This document shows, piece by piece, positions 2,403-26,953 of a stretch of 29,594 nt of DNA (the first letter of the stretch is position 1; each line of letters opens with the position of its first letter). The DNA comes from a virus: IMG/VR virus record IMGVR_UViG_3300024264_000126, positions 1 to 29,594 of that record. One strand, written 5' to 3'. Position numbers and translations under genes: made by a program. The notes under the pieces were generated by a model. That model worked only from the letters and a program-made list of their open reading frames with translations. It was not told where the DNA came from and ran no database searches.

Positions 2403-3584
2403 ATGATGATGCTATTACAAAATACTAATAATACAAACAACTATGCCTCTCAAATTAATTCAACTTATCATACAGATGAAGATCTGTTTGTCACAGTTGA
2501 TCAGCGTCTACAAGAATTGTATGCCAAAGATAGTGATTTGGAAATGCTATTCCGTAGTTTAGCTGAAGGCATGGTTGCCGCAATGGGGTATGAAACATAC
2601 AATGATATGGTTAAAGATATTGTTGGCATGGGAGAAATCCAATATGTACCAGTAACAAGTATCGATATTAACGATACAATGCAACGTTGGCCTGATCGTG
2701 AGAACTTGATTGATATCATTTCAGAATTTAATCCAGACTTTGTTAATCGTATCCGCACTTATTTAGATACAAAACGTAAAGATGGTAATGTATCACGTCA
2801 TGTTGCTTGGGATGGACAACACACTGGACTAGCACTATACATTATTGGTGTATATGGTTTTGGTATGATGCCTGAACTGGTAACAGTACCAGTTGATCAA
2901 TATCCAGGAGATGATCGTGCTGCAATCCGCCGCCGCTTTGTTGAGTTTAACAGTGGCCGTACCAGCAAGAAATTAGAAAACATTGACTTGTACAAACAGT
3001 ATGTAGCAGGGTTCCGCCATGATGGACTTACTGATTTCTGGAACAACCGTTGCGTTAAGTTGCAAGAGTATTTTGAGAACTACAGTTACTATGCTACTAG
3101 CGAAAAGTTTGGTGATGAGAAACGTAGTGGTGCTTGGTCACGTATGACAGAAGTATTTAATCGTAACTTTCCAGTAGAAGTATTTGAGCGTGTGATGTAT
3201 TATCATTCAGTTAGCAATGCTGACAAGCCGTTTATTGCAATGGAGATTGATAACCTCAGTGTATTCTTCCGTCAATGTATGGACGATGGAATTGTTATTA
3301 CAGATGAATACATAGATGAAATGTCATCTGTACTGTCAAAGATTACACAAAACACATGGGCTCCTAGTGGCACTGTTAAAGGACGCAAAGTACAAGCAGC
3401 ATACCAAAATCACTGTGATATCGAAAAGAAAGCAGGGCGTATGATTGAGGGCAAGACTTACCGTTGTAACCAAACGATTGTTGGGCCAAGCTGGATTGCA
3501 GGTGCTCTTAAAACAGCAGGATTTAAACACAAGTTACCAACTTTTGAAGTAGCATTTAACTTTACTGCGGAGGACTTAGTATAA
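2403..3584 (+). CDS. ParB/DGQHR-like protein
   Basis: A 393-residue soluble protein. Residues of about 75-200 look like a ParB-type N-terminal domain: a VPVTSIDIN strand, an MQRWP segment, then HVAWDGQHTG resembling the DGQHR core of ParB/Srx-like proteins, a VTVPVDQYP strand, and an RRFVEFNSGR segment like the conserved F..N..R helix. The C-terminal half is unassigned. In phages such domains occur in DNA-binding or nuclease-like proteins. It has an early-type promoter, and its stop codon overlaps the ATG of an HNH endonuclease gene, so the two are translationally linked. The start has only a weak AAGAAAG ribosome binding site, and ATG codons at 2403, 2406 and 2409 are all possible. Fold call moderate; function unknown. 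Confidence 0.6.
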   Translation: MMMLLQNTNNTNNYASQINSTYHTDEDLFVTVDQRLQELYAKDSDLEMLFRSLAEGMVAAMGYETYNDMVKDIVGMGEIQYVPVTSIDINDTMQRWPDRENLIDIISEFNPDFVNRIRTYLDTKRKDGNVSRHVAWDGQHTGLALYIIGVYGFGMMPELVTVPVDQYPGDDRAAIRRRFVEFNSGRTSKKLENIDLYKQYVAGFRHDGLTDFWNNRCVKLQEYFENYSYYATSEKFGDEKRSGAWSRMTEVFNRNFPVEVFERVMYYHSVSNADKPFIAMEIDNLSVFFRQCMDDGIVITDEYIDEMSSVLSKITQNTWAPSGTVKGRKVQAAYQNHCDIEKKAGRMIEGKTYRCNQTIVGPSWIAGALKTAGFKHKLPTFEVAFNFTAEDLV

Positions 3585-4036
3585 TGGGCATTCGTGAAGC
3601 AACAGATCGGGTACGTAAATCAACAACCGAAATGAAAGCCGCAATGCGAGGCAAATGTAAAACACCAGGCTGTAACAGTCACTTAACACTGTGGAAAGGT
3701 CCAGGTGAGAAAGAGTACTGTGATCCATGTCAGCGTAATTTTGCTGCATTTGGCGGTATGGCCACACCATCCAAAGCATACAGTCAGTTGCGTCAGACAT
3801 CATGCAGTGATTGTGGATTTGATCCTGCTAAATTGCCACGTGTTAAAAAATACAAGGAAAGTGACCCCAAAAAATACAACAGCCTATTACGTGCCGCACT
3901 AACAGTAGATCATATTGATGGTAACCATCAAAACAATGATCCAGAAAATTTAGTAACACTGTGTAGTAATTGTCATAATATCAAAACAATTGAATACGGC
4001 GACAATCTTACTCCAAGTAATCAAAATATTTTATAA
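3584..4036 (+). CDS. HNH endonuclease with N-terminal zinc knuckle
   Basis: A 150-residue protein with two Cys-rich sites. C25, C30, C46 and C49 form a likely zinc knuckle. C74/C77 with C127/C130 form the zinc site that frames a classic HNH core: VDHIDGN (residues 108-114), NNDPENLVTLC, and NCHNIKT, with H110 and H131 as the expected catalytic and metal residues. This is typical of free-standing HNH nucleases in T4-like phages, which usually act as homing endonucleases or in DNA processing. The ATG overlaps the stop codon of the ParB-like gene. No intron is visible. Family call is firm; the target is unknown. Confidence 0.9.
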   Translation: MGIREATDRVRKSTTEMKAAMRGKCKTPGCNSHLTLWKGPGEKEYCDPCQRNFAAFGGMATPSKAYSQLRQTSCSDCGFDPAKLPRVKKYKESDPKKYNSLLRAALTVDHIDGNHQNNDPENLVTLCSNCHNIKTIEYGDNLTPSNQNIL

Positions 4037-9116: not shown

Positions 9117-11339
9117 ATGTCAAACGAACGTTTAGAATTAATGGTAACAAAAGCATTTAAAATTGCAGAAGAGTTTAGTCACAAGTATGTAACTCTCGAG
9201 CATGTATTATGTGTGATTTTAGAAGATCAGGATGTCATTGATGTGATTGTTGAATTGGGAGGTGACCCACTTCAGATTAGCGATCATACGTATGCATATT
9301 GTCATACAGAACTAGAAGAAATTAAAGTTGTAGGTACACTACGCCCAACTAAAACACAGGCACTGGAACGTGTATTTAATCGTGCATTTACACAAGCACT
9401 GTTTAACGGACGTCAACAACTTACAACAGTGGATGTATTGTTGAGTATCCTGAGCGAAAAGAATAGTTTTGCAACATACATCTGCGCAAACAATTTTGTA
9501 ACACGTGAATCATTACTAGAGCATTTGGCAGACAAAAACGATCAGGCTGAACTAGACAGCAACGACCCACGCAATAAAAAAGAAGCAGTACTGCGTAAGT
9601 TCTGTGTTAACTTAAACAAGGAAGCAGAACAAAACAAATTAGATCCACTTATTGGACGTAAAGAAGAAGTAGACTTACTGACACAAACACTGGCCAGACG
9701 TAAAAAGAATAACGTTGTATTAGTGGGCGATGCTGGTGTTGGTAAAACGGCAATTGCTGAAGGACTGGCACATCGTATTGTAACAGCAGATGTTCCAGAA
9801 ACTATTCAAGGACACACAGTATACAGTTTGGATATCGGTGCATTATTGGCTGGTACAAAATATCGTGGAGACTTTGAAGAACGTATGAAAGAGATACTGG
9901 ATATCTTGGAAACACGTGATGATGCTATCTTGTTTATTGATGAGATACACATGATTATGGGCGCAGGGTCAGCAGGACAAGGAGCAATGGATGTTGCTAA
10001 CTTACTGAAGCCAGCACTACAAAAAGGCAAACTACACTGTGTAGGCAGTACAACATATGAAGAATATCGCGAAAAATTTGAGAAAGATCGTGCTTTAGCA
10101 AGACGCTTTTATAAGATTGATGTACCTGAACCAACACCAAGTGAAGCACGTGAGATTGTGACACAGAGTATTGCAACATACGAAACATATCACAACTTAC
10201 AGATTAGTCCAGAAGCAATACAAGCGGCTGTAGACTTGAGTGTACAATATCTACATGATAAAAAGTTGCCAGACAAAGTATTTGACGTTATTGACAGCGC
10301 ATTTGCTCGTCAGCGTGTAACTGAAACAGGTAAACGCAAAAGTCTTATTGATGAAGACTTAATTAAATATGAGATTAGTAAACTTGCACGTATTCCACTA
10401 GACACAGTTGTTAATGTCAAGAAGCGTGAAACACAAATGATTAATATCGAACAGAAACTGCGTGATAGAGTGTTTGGGCAAGACGAAGCAATTGACTTAT
10501 TGGCGGATGCTGTTTATATCAGTAAAGCAGGACTAAAAAGCAAAGACAAGCCTGTTGGTACTTACTTGTTTACTGGACCTACTGGTGTTGGTAAAACTGA
10601 AACTGCAAAAGCAATTAGTGAATTACTTAATATGCATCTTGTACGTTTTGACATGAGTGAATATCAGGAACGTCACACTGTTGCTAAACTTATTGGTGCA
10701 CCTCCTGGCTATGTTGGACATGGTGATGGTAAAATGGGTAGCGGACAACTTATTAATGAGTTGGAAAAGACTCCCAACTGTGTATTACTGCTTGATGAAG
10801 TAGAAAAAGCACACCCAGATGTACTAAACGTTATGTTACAAGTAATGGACAACGGCATGGTGACAAGCAGTGACGGTAAAGCAGTGAGTGCTAGAAATGC
10901 TGTTATTATCCTAACCAGTAACTTGGGCGCCGCTGACAGTGAAAAGAATGTAATTGGATTTAGTGGTGGTAAACATGATACTGCACAAGACAAAGCAGTT
11001 AAAAACTTCTTTAGCCCAGAGTTCCGCAATCGGTTGGATGCTACTGTTAAGTTTAATAAACTTGACCGTGGACACATCAACAAAGTTACTGATAAATTCC
11101 TTAATGAACTAAAATATATGGTCAAGGATCGTGGTGTTACATTAACGTGGACACCAGCAGTAACTGATTGGTTGAGTGATCGTGGATTTAGTGAAACAAT
11201 GGGTGCAAGACCAATGGCACGTGAGATTAATGAAAATATCAAGAAGCCACTTGCACGTAAAATGCTGTTCGACGATTCGGAACTTAGTGATATTCAAGTA
11301 GACATCAATAATGACACAGTGCAAATTGAATATCGATAA
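9117..11339 (+). CDS. clpA: ClpA-type AAA+ protease unfoldase
   Basis: A 740-residue protein with ClpA architecture. The Clp N-domain spans about 1-140 (residues SHKYVTLEHVLCVILED near the start). Module D1 has Walker A GDAGVGKT at 204-211 and Walker B LFIDEIH. Module D2 has Walker A GPTGVGKT at 487-494 and Walker B LLLDEVEKAHPDV. The C-terminal AAA lid contains FSPEFRNRLD and GARPM. There is no ClpB-type long middle coiled coil. IGF at 613-615 (NVIGFSGG) sits where ClpA has its ClpP-docking IGL loop, so it can probably engage host ClpP; no clpP is present in this window. Together with dnaJ it suggests phage control of protein turnover. Confidence 0.93.
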   Translation: MSNERLELMVTKAFKIAEEFSHKYVTLEHVLCVILEDQDVIDVIVELGGDPLQISDHTYAYCHTELEEIKVVGTLRPTKTQALERVFNRAFTQALFNGRQQLTTVDVLLSILSEKNSFATYICANNFVTRESLLEHLADKNDQAELDSNDPRNKKEAVLRKFCVNLNKEAEQNKLDPLIGRKEEVDLLTQTLARRKKNNVVLVGDAGVGKTAIAEGLAHRIVTADVPETIQGHTVYSLDIGALLAGTKYRGDFEERMKEILDILETRDDAILFIDEIHMIMGAGSAGQGAMDVANLLKPALQKGKLHCVGSTTYEEYREKFEKDRALARRFYKIDVPEPTPSEAREIVTQSIATYETYHNLQISPEAIQAAVDLSVQYLHDKKLPDKVFDVIDSAFARQRVTETGKRKSLIDEDLIKYEISKLARIPLDTVVNVKKRETQMINIEQKLRDRVFGQDEAIDLLADAVYISKAGLKSKDKPVGTYLFTGPTGVGKTETAKAISELLNMHLVRFDMSEYQERHTVAKLIGAPPGYVGHGDGKMGSGQLINELEKTPNCVLLLDEVEKAHPDVLNVMLQVMDNGMVTSSDGKAVSARNAVIILTSNLGAADSEKNVIGFSGGKHDTAQDKAVKNFFSPEFRNRLDATVKFNKLDRGHINKVTDKFLNELKYMVKDRGVTLTWTPAVTDWLSDRGFSETMGARPMAREINENIKKPLARKMLFDDSELSDIQVDINNDTVQIEYR

Positions 11340-16733: not shown

Positions 16734-16991
16734 ATGGCTTTAACAACAGCAGCAAAAGGTCAAGCAGGTAACGGACTTGGCGGACGCACACAAATCGTAT
16801 CAGCACCAGTAGCAAACCAGACTGAGTATGACGCAATCATCGAAGGCTTCGGCGCAACAGGTACAGTAGCAGGCGCAGACGGCGCACACGGTGGAACAGT
16901 ACACTTTGCAATTCAGCAGACAGCTGACGTTGCAGGCACAGTTGCAGCTATCACTGTAACAGCAGTTTGTGACTTCAAAGATAACGTATAA
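16734..16991 (+). CDS. Small, probably abundant virion protein
   Basis: An 85-residue Ala/Gly/Thr-rich protein with a single Cys near the end, predicted beta-rich. It is a self-contained unit, with its own late promoter, a very good ribosome binding site (AGGAG, 7-base spacing) and a strong hairpin with T-run 23 bases after the stop. Codons such as GGC, GCA, ATC and TTC are used more than in its neighbours, and the gene looks visibly less AT-rich. Together these suggest high-level late expression, as for a decoration, tail-tube or other multi-copy protein. I do not recognise a family, and the structural role is inference. Confidence 0.72.
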   Translation: MALTTAAKGQAGNGLGGRTQIVSAPVANQTEYDAIIEGFGATGTVAGADGAHGGTVHFAIQQTADVAGTVAAITVTAVCDFKDNV

Positions 16992-17013
16992 TACGTAATT
17001 TTTAGTTAAATTA

Positions 17014-17041
17014 AAATAGGCGCCTAGTGCGTCTATTTTTT
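17014..17041 (+). terminator. Intrinsic terminator after the 85-residue protein gene
   Basis: AAATAGGCGC (17014-17023), loop CTAGT, and GCGTCTATTT (17029-17038) pair over 10 bp with one G-T wobble, and a T-run continues to 17041. It closes the small late unit before the promoter at 17063. Confidence 0.8.
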
Positions 17042-17062
17042 TGACTTTTTTTAAAAAAAGGC

Positions 17063-17091
17063 TTGACTTTAGTGTTAGGATGTATTATATT
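17063..17091 (+). promoter_or_regulatory. Sigma-70 promoter of a non-coding RNA
   Basis: TTGACT at 17063-17068, a 17-bp spacer and TATATT at 17086-17091. It is preceded by the same TTAAAAAAAGGC stretch as the promoter at 4401, but the spacer lacks the AAGACG motif. No gene follows for about 400 bases; the expected start is near 17098. Confidence 0.75.
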
Positions 17092-17097
17092 AAAGAC

Positions 17098-17422
17098 ATA
17101 AGTTAGGAGATATCCTAAGTTAGATAGTGCAAGGAATGGCGGTCCGTAGAGGTCGTAACTTGATTCATAGCTGTGGTGGCAATGCAAGAGCGTAGAGATA
17201 CGAAGTTGTATTTTTAGACGTAACTGTTTAATATGAAGTTCCCGGATTTGAGCGTGGCTCTACAGAAGGGTTGTTGGTATTCACAGAGTCCAACCTATCA
17301 CATTATTATAAACTTGACAGTAATCGGATTACAGTCAGACCAGTTTTAGATAAGAACTTGACTGGAGATAAGAAATACAAATACAAGAAATGACAAACCC
17401 ACCATTGGTGGGTTTTGTTTTT
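17098..17422 (+). ncRNA. Candidate structured phage non-coding RNA, about 320 nt
   Basis: The interval between a sigma-70 promoter and a strong intrinsic terminator contains no credible open frame on either strand; the longest + frame with an ATG near a possible ribosome site is 19 codons. It does contain regular local pairing: TTAGGA-GATA-TCCTAA at 17103-17118 right at the 5' end, GAGC-GTG-GCTC, GGTTG pairing with CAACC across 17 bases, GTAAT-CGG-ATTAC, and CCAGT pairing with ACTGG. It lacks the ends and TPsiC features of a tRNA or tmRNA, and I see no group I intron core that I can defend. I read it as a standalone RNA, possibly regulatory; function unknown. The alternative is a long 5' leader read through into the gene at 17503. 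Confidence 0.65.
17395..17422 (+). terminator. Strong intrinsic terminator of the non-coding RNA
   Basis: AAACCCACC (17395-17403), loop ATT, and GGTGGGTTT (17407-17415) form a perfect 9-bp GC-rich stem, followed by TGTTTTTT. The next late promoter begins two bases later. Confidence 0.9.
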
Positions 17423-17423
17423 T

Positions 17424-17431
17424 AATAAATA
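17424..17431 (+). promoter_or_regulatory. T4-type late promoter (AATAAATA)
   Basis: AATAAATA directly after the terminator. Six bases further, at 17437, begins the perfect hairpin ATAAGT-GAT-ACTTAT, so the late transcript would start with a stem-loop. Confidence 0.68.
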
Positions 17432-17436
17432 CAAAC

Positions 17437-17489
17437 ATAAGTGATACTTATCGACAGCAACCTTAGGTTGACTGACAGTGGAAACACTG
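17437..17489 (+). other. Leader with three successive hairpins
   Basis: ATAAGT-GAT-ACTTAT (17437-17451), CAACC-TTA-GGTTG (17458-17470) and CAGTG-GAAA-CACTG (17476-17489, a GNRA tetraloop) fill the 5' leader between the late promoter and the ACGGAG ribosome binding site at 17491. All stems are perfect. This looks like a stabilising or regulatory leader. Confidence 0.7.
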
Positions 17490-17502
17490 AACGGAGTACA
17501 AA

Positions 17503-18189
17503 ATGGCAGTAACACAGAACCTGAAGGGCACAAGCTACCCTTCTTTTAAAATTCAGAAGGCTGGACCTACCTTATACCAAGGGTCAATTACCCCCGCATT
17601 ATCAGCAGTTAACGGAGACATGTATCTACAGCATGGCAGTGAAGGCTCAGTATGGGTATACAACAACGAATGGACTAGAATTGAAACTGATATCAATGAT
17701 GCAATTGATAACTTTACCATTTACAACAGTACAATGGCCACCAGTAAAAATGTTAGTCATGTATTATGGGGAGAGACCACTGATGGTAATGAAACAGAAT
17801 TATCCCCCAGTTCAAGTTTTGGTATAGACACAACCACAACTACTATTGATAGTATAGCAGTAACCACAGACCAAGGGTCAGCAATTGGACAGATTCATAT
17901 ACCAACTGACACCGCTGGATTAGTGGAAGCTCGTTTTATTGCGAGAGATGCAGACAACAATGACCATGCAGGGTATGTTATACGTGGTGTAATTACCAAT
18001 GATAGTGGAAGCACAACACTACTAACTAATCCAGTGGAAGAAATTATTGGCGAGAGTATTAATTCTTGGTATGCACTGATAGCCGCAGACGATGCAACTG
18101 ATTGTTTAAGTATTAGAGTAAGTGGCGAAAATGGTAAAACTATTAAATGGACAGCGTTTGTAAACTTAACATTGGTCACAAAGACTTGA
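17503..18189 (+). CDS. Late structural protein (fibre-like)
   Basis: A 228-residue beta-rich protein. Residues about 10-65 (SFKIQKAGPTLYQGSITPA to VYNNEWTRIETD) form a short attachment module. The C-terminal 130 residues are a beta-sandwich-like domain rich in Asp, Thr and Ala (DSIAVTTDQGSAIGQIHIP; EARFIARDADNNDHAGYVIRG; WTAFVNLTLVTKT), a pattern I know from tips of marine phage fibres. It starts with ACGGAG 6 bases upstream and has the unusual three-hairpin leader described separately. Its TGA stop overlaps the next late promoter. No enzymatic motif is visible. Confidence 0.72.
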   Translation: MAVTQNLKGTSYPSFKIQKAGPTLYQGSITPALSAVNGDMYLQHGSEGSVWVYNNEWTRIETDINDAIDNFTIYNSTMATSKNVSHVLWGETTDGNETELSPSSSFGIDTTTTTIDSIAVTTDQGSAIGQIHIPTDTAGLVEARFIARDADNNDHAGYVIRGVITNDSGSTTLLTNPVEEIIGESINSWYALIAADDATDCLSIRVSGENGKTIKWTAFVNLTLVTKT

Positions 18190-19607: not shown

Positions 19608-19636
19608 TTGACAACCAAGACGCTTTACCGTATAAT
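19608..19636 (+). promoter_or_regulatory. Perfect-consensus sigma-70 promoter before the uvdE operon
   Basis: TTGACA at 19608-19613, a 17-bp spacer and TATAAT at 19631-19636. The spacer contains CCAAGACGCTTTAC (19615-19628), one base different from the promoters at 4054 and 4401, 15 kb away. It drives the small gene at 19662 and, by overlap, uvdE. Confidence 0.9.
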
Positions 19637-19661: not shown

Positions 19662-19886
19662 ATGAATTATCTAGTCACAGAACCCGGTTTAACTATTTTC
19701 AACTTTGCACAAAAAATTACAGCATCGCAGTACCAACTTGCACAGCAAGTATTCGGCTCAGATGCGTTCATTGCTGTGCCTTATACACGCAAGCAACAGC
19801 AAGCAATCCGTGCAAACTTCCCTAGTAAATTTACACATACCTTTACTACAAAACAAACTACTAATTTGTTGCAATCATATGTTTAA
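19662..19886 (+). CDS. Small hypothetical protein upstream of uvdE
   Basis: A 74-residue protein starting with AGGAG 5-6 bases before the ATG, directly under a perfect-consensus promoter. It is mixed alpha/beta with a Gln/Lys/Thr-rich C-terminal half (RKQQQAIRANFPSKFTHTFTTKQTTN). I know no family for it. Its last 8 bases overlap the start of uvdE (ATGTTTAA), so uvdE, which lacks a ribosome binding site of its own, is probably translated by coupling to this gene. Confidence 0.68.
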   Translation: MNYLVTEPGLTIFNFAQKITASQYQLAQQVFGSDAFIAVPYTRKQQQAIRANFPSKFTHTFTTKQTTNLLQSYV

Positions 19887-20904
19887 TCAAAACGTACAGC
19901 GTGTAGGATTTGCATGCAAGTACATGCACCCAGACCAGACACAAAAGCCAAAAATACTTAAAGAAGTACAAGGTGCTTACAGTGAACGCAGTACTACTAT
20001 CACATGGCTTAACAATCAAAAGCAATCAGTAGCAGAAGATAAACTGTGGTTTTGTTTGGATACTAACTGGCAAAATGCATATCGTCTGATTGAGTATGTG
20101 GGTAACTTACCACAAGGTCAGCGTATGGTACGATTGGGCAGTAATATGATGCCTGCGTATACACACAATGACTGGGCTTGGTTTTACAAACAGAGCGATG
20201 TACGAGATGCCGCAGCCAAAGGCTGGGCGCAAGTGGGAGAGCTAGCACGTAAACTTGATGTGCGTGTAAGTATGCACCCTGGTCAATTTACTGTATTGGC
20301 AAGTGACAATCCAGAAATAGTAAATAGAAGTATAGAGGAGTTCGAGTATCATGCGGATATCATCAGGTGGATGGGTTACGGTAAAAAGTGGCAAGACTTC
20401 AAGTGTAACGTCCACATCTCAGGACGTCAAGGTCCAGCCGGTATCAAAGCCGTCCTTCCAAGACTGTCTACAGAAGCACGAAACTGTATCACTATTGAAA
20501 ACGACGAAAACGCCTGGGGTCTCGAAGCTAGCCTAGAACTAGAAAACGATGTTGCACTGGTGTTGGATATACATCATCATTGGTGTCACAGTGGAGGAGA
20601 ATACATTGACAGAACTGACGATCGCTGTAAACGTATTATTGACAGTTGGCGTGGTGTACGTCCTAGTATGCACTACAGCGTCAGTCGTGAAGACTTGCTG
20701 GTTGATCATCCAATGGATCAAAAGCCTGACTTCCAAAGACTATTAGAACAAGGCTACAAGAAAGCAAAACTACGAGCGCACAGTGACTACATGTGGAATA
20801 CGGCAGTCAATGAATGGGCTAGCACGTTTCGTAATGACTTTGACATTATGGTAGAAGCAAAGTGCAAAAACTTGGCAAGTATTCCGTTTGAAGAAAGTAT
20901 GTAA
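19879..20904 (+). CDS. uvdE: UV damage endonuclease UvdE/UvsE
   Basis: A 341-residue TIM-barrel nuclease of the UVDE family, which nicks DNA 5' of UV photoproducts and starts alternative excision repair. Conserved metal-site strands are present: RLGSNMMP (85-92), SMHPGQFTVLAS (131-142, H133), ITIENDE (204-210, E207), LDIHHHWCH (229-237) and RPSMHYS (261-267, H265). These match the known family order (VGFACKYM at the N-terminus is also typical). The frame is open further upstream, but that part overlaps the preceding gene and is not UVDE-like; the ATG at 19879 overlaps that gene's stop. It is controlled by an early-type promoter. A repair enzyme suits a phage of sunlit water. Confidence 0.92.
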   Translation: MFNQNVQRVGFACKYMHPDQTQKPKILKEVQGAYSERSTTITWLNNQKQSVAEDKLWFCLDTNWQNAYRLIEYVGNLPQGQRMVRLGSNMMPAYTHNDWAWFYKQSDVRDAAAKGWAQVGELARKLDVRVSMHPGQFTVLASDNPEIVNRSIEEFEYHADIIRWMGYGKKWQDFKCNVHISGRQGPAGIKAVLPRLSTEARNCITIENDENAWGLEASLELENDVALVLDIHHHWCHSGGEYIDRTDDRCKRIIDSWRGVRPSMHYSVSREDLLVDHPMDQKPDFQRLLEQGYKKAKLRAHSDYMWNTAVNEWASTFRNDFDIMVEAKCKNLASIPFEESM

Positions 20905-21479
20905 TGATTTTATATCTTAAAACACATAATGTTACAGGTATGAAGTATCTTGGACAAACAACTAGAAATCCATACAAATATGAGGGATCTGGTGTTTATT
21001 GGCGCCGGCACATAGAGATGCACGGCAATAATGTAACAACTGAAATACTTTACCAAAGTGACAACCAAGACAATTTTAAAAAGGTTTGTATAGACTACTC
21101 AGCAAAATTTGATGTTGTTAATAATAAAATGTTTGCAAATCTAGTTGAGGAACATGGAAATTCACTTGGTGGTAAAGCTAATCCCAACTACAAGACTGGC
21201 ATGTATACAGGGCGTTTAGATAATCCTGAACTATATAGACAGTTAGACAGAGATCGTCATTCTGCACAATGGGATAATAAAAAAGAACACACACACCCTA
21301 GGATGAACTTCTTTCATCATAAACGTATGGGCAATAAAGAACGTGCTGAATACTATTGGAATATATGGTACAACATGGCTCCTAAGAAAAGTAATAATCG
21401 ACAAGCACTCTGGAAAACAGATACATTTGAAATGTGGTATAATCGTAAAGGCAACGATTTGGACTTTAGAGAGAAATAG
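20904..21479 (+). CDS. GIY-YIG-like free-standing homing endonuclease
   Basis: A 191-residue protein with the degenerate GIY-YIG pattern of phage free-standing endonucleases: LYLKTHNVTGMKYLGQTTRNPYKYEGSG near residues 3-30 (YLG as the YIG core), then WRRHIEMHG with the family Arg. A GGKANPNYKTGMYTGR segment (about 88-103) resembles the NUMOD-type DNA-binding motifs that accompany these enzymes, and the C-terminal part is basic and aromatic. Its ATG overlaps the uvdE stop codon (TAATG). Such genes usually spread by cutting a homologous locus in a competing phage. It is likely a selfish insert next to uvdE. Family call good; activity untested. Confidence 0.75.
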   Translation: MILYLKTHNVTGMKYLGQTTRNPYKYEGSGVYWRRHIEMHGNNVTTEILYQSDNQDNFKKVCIDYSAKFDVVNNKMFANLVEEHGNSLGGKANPNYKTGMYTGRLDNPELYRQLDRDRHSAQWDNKKEHTHPRMNFFHHKRMGNKERAEYYWNIWYNMAPKKSNNRQALWKTDTFEMWYNRKGNDLDFREK

Positions 21480-25870: not shown

Positions 25871-25875
25871 TTACT

Positions 25876-25890
25876 AGTCCATTAAGGACT
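25876..25890 (+). other. 5'-terminal hairpin of a late transcript
   Basis: AGTCC (25876-25880), loop ATTAA, and GGACT (25886-25890), again beginning at the expected transcription start. The duplicated leader with a second GGGGT-ACCA-ACCCC stem follows immediately. Confidence 0.6.
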
Positions 25891-25894
25891 TTAT

Positions 25895-25954
25895 GGGGTA
25901 CCAACCCCGTAGACTTAGAACGTCAAGGAGAAAACAAATGGGAAGACCACTAAA
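25895..25954 (+). repeat. 60-bp direct repeat, copy 1 (leader and start of an MGRPL gene)
   Basis: Identical, base for base, to 26452-26511. It contains a GGGGT-ACCA-ACCCC hairpin, the AAGGAG ribosome binding site and the first codons of the gene (MGRPL). It is conserved at the DNA level although the two proteins differ strongly after residue 5. Confidence 0.9.
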
Positions 25955-26399
25955 GGCATCAAAAACAGTTAATGGAGTTGCAATTTTAGGTGCAATTGGC
26001 AAAGAATCAGAACCAGGCGAACAGTTAACAATGAGTGCATTTGTCACAGGCGGTAGCGCATTAGATACAACTGACATTGTACAAAAAGGTACACACCGTT
26101 TCCGTTGCACAACATATGATGGCACAGAAACATGCACACTAGTTGCAAAAGCACCTGGTGCTCTTGTAGCAGGAGAGTGCTGTCTGGTGGCAGCAGATCA
26201 GCAGGGAGACACATACTATGTAAGTCGTATTAGTGCTAACTGGATTGAAATTGGTGCATTGGGCACAGGTTCACAGGTTGCAGTAGGCGATCGTGTACAG
26301 TGGGTTAGGGCAACAGCACCAGCACTAACAATCTATACTGACACATATCCTGTTGGTTCAGTAGAACAGCCAGGCAGATTCCAAATGAGGACATCATAA
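25938..26399 (+). CDS. MGRPL-family virion protein, copy 1
   Basis: A 153-residue beta-rich protein starting MGRPLKASKTV. The frame is open from 25893, but AAGGAG at 25925-25930 points to the ATG at 25938. The stretch IVQKGTHRFRCTTYDGTETCTLV, then GALVAGECCL and GDTYYVSRISANWIEIGA, aligns with the next gene's protein (IVRQKGSKRFVCS, CTLA, SALAAGEMT, GETYTVSKIAGRRVTLSA), so the two are paralogues. Proteins that begin MGRPLNKxxF are familiar from marine T4-like phages as structural proteins. It is expressed from the late promoter at 25863 with a structured leader. Virion role likely; exact place unknown. Confidence 0.75.
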   Translation: MGRPLKASKTVNGVAILGAIGKESEPGEQLTMSAFVTGGSALDTTDIVQKGTHRFRCTTYDGTETCTLVAKAPGALVAGECCLVAADQQGDTYYVSRISANWIEIGALGTGSQVAVGDRVQWVRATAPALTIYTDTYPVGSVEQPGRFQMRTS

Positions 26400-26429: not shown

Positions 26430-26446
26430 GATAACAATATGTTATC
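26430..26446 (+). other. 5'-terminal hairpin of a late transcript
   Basis: GATAACA (26430-26436), loop ATA, and TGTTATC (26440-26446), a perfect 7-bp stem at the expected transcription start. The second copy of the 60-bp leader follows. Confidence 0.62.
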
Positions 26447-26451
26447 TTATG

Positions 26452-26511
26452 GGGGTACCAACCCCGTAGACTTAGAACGTCAAGGAGAAAACAAATGGGA
26501 AGACCACTAAA
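26452..26511 (+). repeat. 60-bp direct repeat, copy 2
   Basis: The second perfect copy of 25895-25954: hairpin, ribosome binding site and the first codons of the downstream gene. An extra G precedes it here (GGGGG instead of GGGG). Confidence 0.9.
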
Positions 26512-26953
26512 CAAAAGATTCTTTGCTAAAGCTGATGTAGGACCAACAGCGGCAGGCGAAGAAATTAAAGTAAATTTTCACAACGGAAGTGGAGTAAAAG
26601 AAGGCTTTATTGTGAGACAAAAAGGATCTAAAAGATTCGTATGCTCAGCACTAGACGTACAAGATACTGAACACACATGTACACTAGCAACTGGTAAACT
26701 ACCATCGGCACTAGCAGCAGGTGAAATGACTATTTCATTCAAAATGGACGATGGCGAAACATACACAGTGAGTAAAATTGCTGGACGTAGAGTTACACTA
26801 TCAGCACCAAGTGCTACAGGCACAAATAAGCATGATGGCGCAAGTGTTCCATGGGGCTTTGGCAACTATACTGATCAAGCACAAGTTGAAGAAGCTGGTG
26901 ATGACGATGTTGCTGCTGGCACAGATGACGACGATTTCACAGAAGATGCATAA
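26495..26953 (+). CDS. MGRPL-family virion protein, copy 2
   Basis: A 152-residue beta-rich protein starting MGRPLNKRFFAK, the classic beginning of this marine-phage structural family. It shares the central pattern of copy 1 (QKGxxRFxC, HTCTLA, LAAGEM, GETYTVSKIAG). The C-terminus differs, being a very acidic tail (EEAGDDDVAAGTDDDDFTED), which in phage proteins often marks scaffold-like or head-associated parts. It has its own late promoter and 5' hairpin and the same leader as copy 1. A downstream hairpin (26979-27019) separates it from the next gene. Confidence 0.77.
   Translation: MGRPLNKRFFAKADVGPTAAGEEIKVNFHNGSGVKEGFIVRQKGSKRFVCSALDVQDTEHTCTLATGKLPSALAAGEMTISFKMDDGETYTVSKIAGRRVTLSAPSATGTNKHDGASVPWGFGNYTDQAQVEEAGDDDVAAGTDDDDFTEDA

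Follow-up and report, generated by a model that had tools for sequence, protein, structure and literature searches.

Layout of the locus

The window, i.e. the whole stretch of DNA that was analyzed, is a 29.6-kb IMG/VR record (29,594 nucleotides) of an uncultivated virus of bacteria. The region considered here lies between a gene of 85 aa and a gene of 228 aa and contains the following elements, given with the evidence used:

16734-16991: upstream gene, 85 aa
17011-17187, minus strand: TTG frame of 58 aa (ORF list)
17013-17042, plus strand: terminator-like hairpin (11-pair stem at 17013-17039, then a T-run) after the upstream gene and before the RNA promoter (terminator scan; T-run read from the sequence)
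17063-17091, plus strand: sigma-70-type promoter of the RNA, TTGACT-17-TATATT, 10/12 (promoter scan and recurrence in relatives)
17099-17301, plus strand: conserved structured RNA of divergent manA type, ~203 nt (Rfam match at 17103-17304, clade alignment, RNAalifold, covariation)
17099-17122, plus strand: 5' hairpin of this RNA (clade fold)
17123-17127 (GATAG) with 17295-17299 (CTATC), plus strand: closing stem of this RNA (clade fold)
17127, plus strand: GTG frame of 22 aa (ORF list)
17233, plus strand: frame of 38 aa (ORF list)
17305-17394, plus strand: lineage-specific tail, ~90 nt (retained in a sister phage without the manA-type RNA)
17306-17533, minus strand: TTG frame of 75 aa (ORF list)
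17395-17423, plus strand: intrinsic terminator of the RNA unit, 9-bp stem, loop of 3, T-run (terminator scan, clade comparison)
17425-17431, plus strand: ATAAATA ahead of the next gene, a promoter motif of T4 late type (assigned by motif only)
17503-18189, plus strand: next gene, 228 aa (ORF list)

The product of the 228-aa gene has no PHROG match, and over its first 51 aa it shares 48% identity with a hypothetical protein of Sinorhizobium phage Phosso; we do not propose this gene as a target of the RNA. A reading made from the letters of the window (hereafter the sequence-only reading) had described here a sigma-70 promoter, about 320 bases devoid of a credible gene, and a perfect 9-bp terminator with a T-run, the whole being unlike tRNA or tmRNA and embedded in a late region. 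Promoter and terminator are present as described. The longest plus-strand frame starting inside the stretch has 40 aa, and ARAGORN finds no tRNA or tmRNA gene in the window. A motif supports the late setting: the window has 12 copies of ATAAATA on its plus strand, one of them at 17425, and none on its minus strand, and the T4 late promoter sequence is given as TATAAAT in the relevant part of PMC3037559. The 12 plus-strand sites form a candidate set of late promoters. Elsewhere in the window, a perfect 12/12 sigma-70 promoter (TTGACA-17-TATAAT, 19608-19636) precedes two genes which we take, from resemblances seen by eye, to encode a UV-damage endonuclease (19705-20904) and a GIY-YIG endonuclease (20904-21479); this is perhaps another early-type insert in the late region.

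The ~325-nt stretch is composite, with a conserved RNA of ~203 nt followed by the lineage-specific tail of ~90 nt; transcription of the RNA would start at ~17097-17099. Single-sequence scans of 10 kb found 22 promoters (30.0 +/- 6.2 in shuffles) and 10 terminators (6.7 +/- 3.0 in shuffles), which is no better than chance in both cases, so that only comparison between phages can settle the reality of the unit. The 330-nt strand folds somewhat better than its shuffles (z = -2.1; equalled by 3/100 of them). Two tails taken without the terminator fold weakly better than shuffles (z of -2.1 and -2.5). The idea of a structured tail was dropped, since values of -3.8 and -3.7 had been obtained with the terminator hairpin included and the folds of the two tails disagree. 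The tail is confined to the window's own site (6/6 records).

A divergent relative of the manA RNA

The sequence-only reading had called for an Rfam search. Scanned by E-value, the short stretch matches the manA RNA (RF01745) at 17103-17304 with 43.5 bits and E = 5.5e-10, over the whole model (positions 1-192) and with several non-standard pairs. This score is below the gathering cut-off of the family (55.2 bits); two relatives, L018 and L031, reach 48.3 and 40.6 bits. A scan at gathering thresholds misses the window RNA, and ordinary annotation would therefore miss it too. The window RNA is thus a divergent relative of manA which, by Rfam's cut-off, is no formal member of the family. Fourteen other Rfam matches by E-value in the stretch (best E 0.076), mostly on the terminator hairpin, were set aside as due to chance.

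The relationship was also considered through structure and in the reverse direction. The full set of consensus helices is found in the same order, both in the RF01745 alignment and by RNAalifold on the clade alone. Tried on 20 canonical loci, a covariance model made from 13 sequences of the window's clade recognizes 11, with E from 6e-9 to 1e-5, and misses the other 9; it gives no match in 4 loci where nhmmer had found no RNA. On these comparisons the window RNA is almost certainly homologous to manA.

Sequences of the RNA split into a canonical clade and a divergent clade, and the window belongs to the divergent one. A pattern taken from the 3' end common to the window and the manA consensus was found in 48 IMG/VR stretches, and a second, canonical pattern in at least 120, giving 118 loci (L069-L186) among the matches listed; G002 and G004 also carry the RNA. 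Against 84,980 species genomes, the first pattern matched once, in a contig labelled Flavobacteriales MAG. BLAST of the manA consensus against phage records matched 42 records at one place each, all of them named Prochlorococcus, Synechococcus or cyanophages, or marine single-cell viruses. BLASTN of the window's intergenic region against phages returned short pieces only, which cover 5-8% of the query and mostly fall on terminators (best E 4e-3).

With the proteins tried, no close cultured relative of the window's clade was found, and tblastn of neighbouring and other proteins identified no host. There were no matches in phage records for window 2403-3584, for window 26495-26953 or for one L018 protein. 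The ClpA-like ATPase of the window (9117-11339) has its best match, with 44% identity, in a protein of Sinorhizobium phage Phosso, whose genome is 469 kb, and the window may come from a large-genome phage.

Conserved fold and covariation

The alignment of the window's clade comprises 13 distinct sequences and 218 columns. RNAalifold applied to it gives a 5' hairpin and a long-range closing stem, inside which hairpins and a multi-branched helix follow one another in the order of the manA consensus. The sequence-only reading had proposed that compensatory changes in the stems would support a structured RNA, and such changes are found: 20 of the 69 pairs have changed on both sides with pairing kept, a count reached in 0/500 shuffles. 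Similarly, pairing is kept in 98.1% of the pairing cells (93.6% in shuffles; 0/500) and the covariation score is 0.218 (0.134 in shuffles; 0/500). The number of further pair types is not above that of shuffles, 439/500 of which reach it. The 5' hairpin, already noticed in the sequence-only reading, covaries as well, with both-side changes in 5/9 pairs of this helix 1. Within the clade, neither the closing stem nor the outer four pairs of the third helix vary; helices 10 and 11 pair in just 89.2% and 94.1% of the cells.

For 35 canonical sequences, RNAalifold recovers the same closing stem and main inner helices, with both-side changes in 27/44 pairs; the 5' hairpin, poorly aligned there, and one inner hairpin are not recovered. 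The closing stem is GATAG/CTATC in 13/13 sequences of the window's clade. Among 118 distinct canonical cores it is GGGAG/CTCCC in 109, GGGTG/CACCC in 3 and AGGAG/CTCCT in 3, and the remaining 3 have the mismatched GGGTG/CTCCC. Two other resemblances are not retained. A loop-loop contact UGGU/ACCA, near-invariant in canonical rows and by eye partly kept in the window's clade, is not claimed, and the likeness of the canonical 3' end CCUCCC to an anti-Shine-Dalgarno sequence was dropped because the window's clade has CUAUC.

Promoter and terminators across loci

Promoters played no part in the finding of the loci, which relied on RNA patterns, on neighbouring proteins or on BLAST of the RNA consensus. 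We reduced 184 instances to 137 non-redundant ones by dropping those without 60 nt upstream, those with a truncated 5' end and those having more than 80% of 12-mers in common with a kept one. A sigma-70 promoter of at least 10/12 is present at the 5' end of the RNA in 134 of these 137 loci, compared to 2.7% of 2563 random windows of the same loci. The exceptions are L115 and L173, both at 9/12, and L178, where a tRNA-Thr, the manA RNA and a terminator directly follow one another (L178:1120-1436) and the tRNA takes the place of a promoter. In 49 of the 134 loci (e.g. L015, L028, L042) the promoter is fused to a terminator, whose hairpin overlaps the -35 box and whose T-run lies in the spacer. 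A further 5, including the window's lineage (L001), have a terminator at most 80 nt upstream, and 80 have neither arrangement. At matched promoter strength, such an overlap of terminator and -35 box is seen for 21/78 manA promoters and for 3/48 other promoters of the same loci; the second copy in L144 accounts for one of these three.

In the window's clade a terminator follows the RNA, 5-187 nt downstream, in 21/22 records (L017 ends 72 nt after the RNA); several of these records belong to the same phage lineage, so that they do not amount to 22 independent cases, and longer loops were allowed than in the 118-locus count given below. The terminators vary between lineages in sequence and distance while the RNA stays constant. 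This bears on a test set beforehand by the sequence-only reading, according to which conservation confined to the terminator would speak against a non-coding RNA gene: it is the RNA that is conserved. A TAAATA late-type motif lies within 260 nt after the RNA in 11/11 clade records looked at.

The sequences of the RNA end and of the terminators were compared for signs of attenuation. No complementarity between the 5' arm of the terminator and the last 60 nt of the RNA is common to all clade records. It amounts to 5 nt in the window, where 49/200 shuffles do as well, and is nominally low in frequency among shuffles only in L012/L022 (8-9/200) and L023/L030/L031 (18-21/200). That terminators differ and share no complementarity with the RNA end speaks against attenuation, and no common expression platform of a riboswitch was seen in the window's clade. 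By its sequence, the clade has the features of a stand-alone RNA gene, namely its own promoter, its own terminator and no frame shared by all; it appears to lack the 5'-UTR position implied by the Rfam type 'Cis-reg', a terminator standing before the next gene in 21/22 records.

These comparisons support the central claim of the sequence-only reading, that a separate unit of non-coding RNA, with a promoter and a terminator of its own, is set among late-type genes: the observation is confirmed and its interpretation as a unit appears well founded. We conclude that the RNA very probably has its own transcription unit.

Genes downstream of the RNA

The surroundings of the RNA were surveyed in 118 non-redundant loci with 250 nt downstream, after dropping 19 shorter ones. 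A terminator precedes any ORF in 28 loci, a tRNA comes next in 7, an ORF starts within 120 nt in 75, and an ORF comes later in 8. The 7 loci with a tRNA, like L178, place the RNA in the context of an RNA operon. Terminators within 150 nt after the RNA are found in 28/120 loci compared to 48/685 random stretches. All 75 loci in which an ORF starts so closely, with no terminator found in between, belong to the canonical clade, where use as a leader may be common. The window's clade accounts for 11/137 loci, and the nine of them with enough DNA are all in the terminator class.

The first downstream ORFs of at least 40 codons (n=119), whether behind terminators or not, fall into 38 families (BLASTP, 1e-5). 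According to names taken from the annotated L065 and L066, the largest are gp32 (21/119), an unnamed family (12/119) and transaldolase (12/119). In P-TIM68 (L196:1733-2038), a manA copy that seemed to face a gene on the opposite strand was dropped as a case: a plus-strand ORF begins ~20 nt downstream of the RNA, and the minus-strand annotation is probably in error.

Some neighbouring elements are reported here as side observations. In L023:2932-3541 three elements come after the manA core, namely a frame of 19 codons, possibly with a Shine-Dalgarno sequence (judged by eye), next a terminator, and last a pair of tRNAs. The window contains two freshwater-2 RNAs (RF02980) at 25875-25940 and 26430-26497, separated by ~0.5 kb; one lies where the gene 25893-26399 starts, the other where the gene 26495-26953 starts. 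In L018, L044, L045, L026 and L050 the gene that immediately follows the manA unit likewise has a freshwater-2 RNA at its start, and these genes have 43-70% identity to window 26495-26950.

Copy number, position and exchange

The RF01745 model was searched in 21 complete phage records, 14 of which had been chosen as carriers via a BLAST match, so that copy number can be read from this set and frequency cannot. Exactly one match is present in each of these 14/21 records, at varying places. The other 7 (five cyanomyoviruses, pelagiphage HTVC008M and Sinorhizobium phage Phosso) have no RF01745 match, nor any match to the clade model; the RNA is therefore dispensable. Among the loci scanned, the sole case of two manA copies is the metagenomic contig L144, at 105-312 and 3636-3833, 3.3 kb apart.

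The position of the RNA changes between close relatives. Phages P-HM1 and P-HM2, whose records are filed under one species, carry manA after gp23 and between a ferredoxin oxidoreductase gene and gp32, respectively; each site is present but empty in the other phage, with flanks 79-92% identical. The P-HM2 copy is located at NC_015284.1:4771-4969. At the window's own site, contig 3300021957_004611 has kept promoter, tail and terminator, and the RNA is precisely absent. At the same site, contig 3300009086_001220 shares the tail, and its core has 72% identity to that of the window. Among eleven clade records the cores are 71-98% identical, while most flanks are no more alike than shuffled DNA (0.61), with the exception of record pairs having one flank in common. 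Related units are thus exchanged, absent or located elsewhere independently of their neighbours.

Proposed function and alternative explanations

We propose that 17063-17423 is a self-contained, exchangeable, early-type RNA gene acting in trans, with a probability of about 0.62. The host polymerase would transcribe the unit early from the sigma-70 promoter, whose host type itself suggests early expression; the transcript would end at the intrinsic terminator 17395-17423, and would be stable owing to its closed multi-helix fold. Action in trans, taken separately, seems fairly probable to us: a downstream gene that varies, a terminator that cuts it off in the window's clade, and an RNA that is relocated yet single-copy form the pattern of a trans-acting RNA gene, and what is constant across loci is promoter, fold and copy number. 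The RNA would most likely bind a host or phage protein or the translation machinery, since its closed multi-helix fold and conserved core would suit contact with a protein or the ribosome better than base-pairing to a single message. Pairing with one mRNA, or regulation of the adjacent gene, would be less likely modes, and the suggestion of the sequence-only reading that the RNA acts on host or phage messages is a guess.

The same mode would hold for many members of the manA family as a whole, which frequently have a gene or tRNA close behind them; such canonical copies may be processed out or be active while attached. We lean towards the view that manA is a family of trans-acting phage RNA genes rather than a riboswitch or cis leader, single-copy, with a strong early-type promoter (often overlapped by a terminator that would stop transcription arriving from upstream), and lost, swapped or relocated as a module. 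In the same view, and with the same reserve, the window displays the most naked form of manA (promoter, RNA, terminator), in phages not known to infect cyanobacteria.

The window RNA could instead be a cis-acting leader, a riboswitch-like manA sensor with the terminator as expression platform, attenuating the 228-aa gene at 17503. This agrees with the filing of the family as cis-regulatory and as a riboswitch candidate (Rfam type; manA entry of PMC2864571), with the ORF found within 120 nt in 75/118 loci, and with the CUCCC of the canonical closing stem, which could in principle pair with a Shine-Dalgarno sequence. In the window's clade, however, CUCCC is replaced by CUAUC, terminators differ around a constant RNA without a complementarity to the RNA end common to all, and the next gene has its own late-type motif. 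The 38 downstream families, the single copy in each of the 14 carrier genomes and the different places of the P-HM1 and P-HM2 copies also argue against a leader, which we consider unlikely here. A second possibility retains action in cis, on the polymerase. The put RNAs of phage HK022 are short paired hairpins at the 5' end of early transcripts which act in cis on RNA polymerase, and nascent manA might likewise bind the polymerase, which would then ignore downstream terminators. The RNA does stand at the very start of the transcript in 134/137 loci, followed by various genes and in some cases by a terminator. But one copy in each of 14 carriers would serve just one transcript, the L178 copy sits between a tRNA and a terminator, and the late-type motif after the RNA in 11/11 clade records means that the next gene need not depend on the RNA promoter; a put-like role therefore appears improbable.

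The mobility of the unit could also be that of a selfish or hitch-hiking RNA cassette, spread by recombination without benefit to the phage, and its precise absence in one sister, the other allele in a second and the differing places in P-HM1 and P-HM2 would all be expected of it. One HNH-endonuclease-like protein is encoded in the window as well (3584-4036), 13 kb away. Covariation and promoter conservation nevertheless imply selection on the RNA, and the 14 carrier genomes give no sign of multiplication, though L144 has two copies; we judge such a cassette very improbable. Finally, a small protein might be encoded by the 22-aa frame at 17127 or the 38-aa frame at 17233. These frames exist, and in the 13-row clade alignment the 22-aa one is present in 11/13 rows and two frames running off the 3' end in 12/13. 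The sequence-only reading had named a conserved small frame as a refuting observation, and no plus-strand frame is common to all 13 rows: the 22-aa frame is altered or lost in L003 and L035, and base changes follow the pairing. The chance of a small protein gene is accordingly close to nil. We thus retain the trans-acting RNA gene as the preferred reading.

If manA is an independent movable RNA gene, the search for its role would shift from ligands to partners (host protein, polymerase or ribosome), and an RNA of many marine phages would join the few known phage-encoded structured RNAs without known function. A stand-alone manA could then be tested at once on existing infection RNA-seq: that of P-HM2 on Prochlorococcus MED4 is available (GEO GSE79359), with intergenic reads also counted according to the part of PMC5082946 that describes it.

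Comparison with known systems

The window RNA resembles the manA RNA (RF01745) by its full-length alignment, helix order, GUGGUG-type loop, 3' hairpin and carriage by phages. The window's clade differs from it by a score below the gathering cut-off, another closing stem and the terminator after the RNA in 21/22 records; manA is filed as cis-regulatory for metabolic genes. The put RNAs of HK022 and, on our reading, manA are both structured phage RNAs at the 5' end of early transcripts.

The listing of manA as a likely cis-regulator, and possibly a riboswitch, located before mannose and other metabolism genes goes back to Weinberg et al. 2010 (PMC2864571). The passages on manA of later phage papers and of a 2025 review (PMC9964418, PMC10665884, PMC12197685) repeat this cis-regulatory reading, and the corresponding passage of the Rfam 14 paper (PMC7779021) reports 48 significant pairs for the ZWD manA alignment. 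In pelagimyophages and cyanomyophages, no riboswitches were found with Riboswitch Scanner, according to the section of PMC7029224 on this point. The parts of PMC2864571, PMC9964418, PMC12197685, PMC10665884, PMC7657543 and PMC7779021 that deal with manA treat it as cis-regulatory or as a test alignment and contain no reading of it as a stand-alone gene. From the sequence comparisons above, we suggest that manA is probably misfiled as an mRNA leader.

The wcaG, PhotoRC-II and glnA RNAs are likewise structured RNAs of T4-like cyanophages, as described in parts of PMC2864571 and PMC9964418; they are other Rfam families, none of which is found at cut-off in the window. The nearest parallels in kind are the ROOL and GOLLD RNAs, presented in the corresponding sections of PMC12286853 as phage-encoded structured non-coding RNAs without known function, often near tRNA genes; for manA, a tRNA comes next in 7/118 loci. 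GOLLD is often longer than 800 nt, and ROOL and GOLLD form RNA nanocages (same source).
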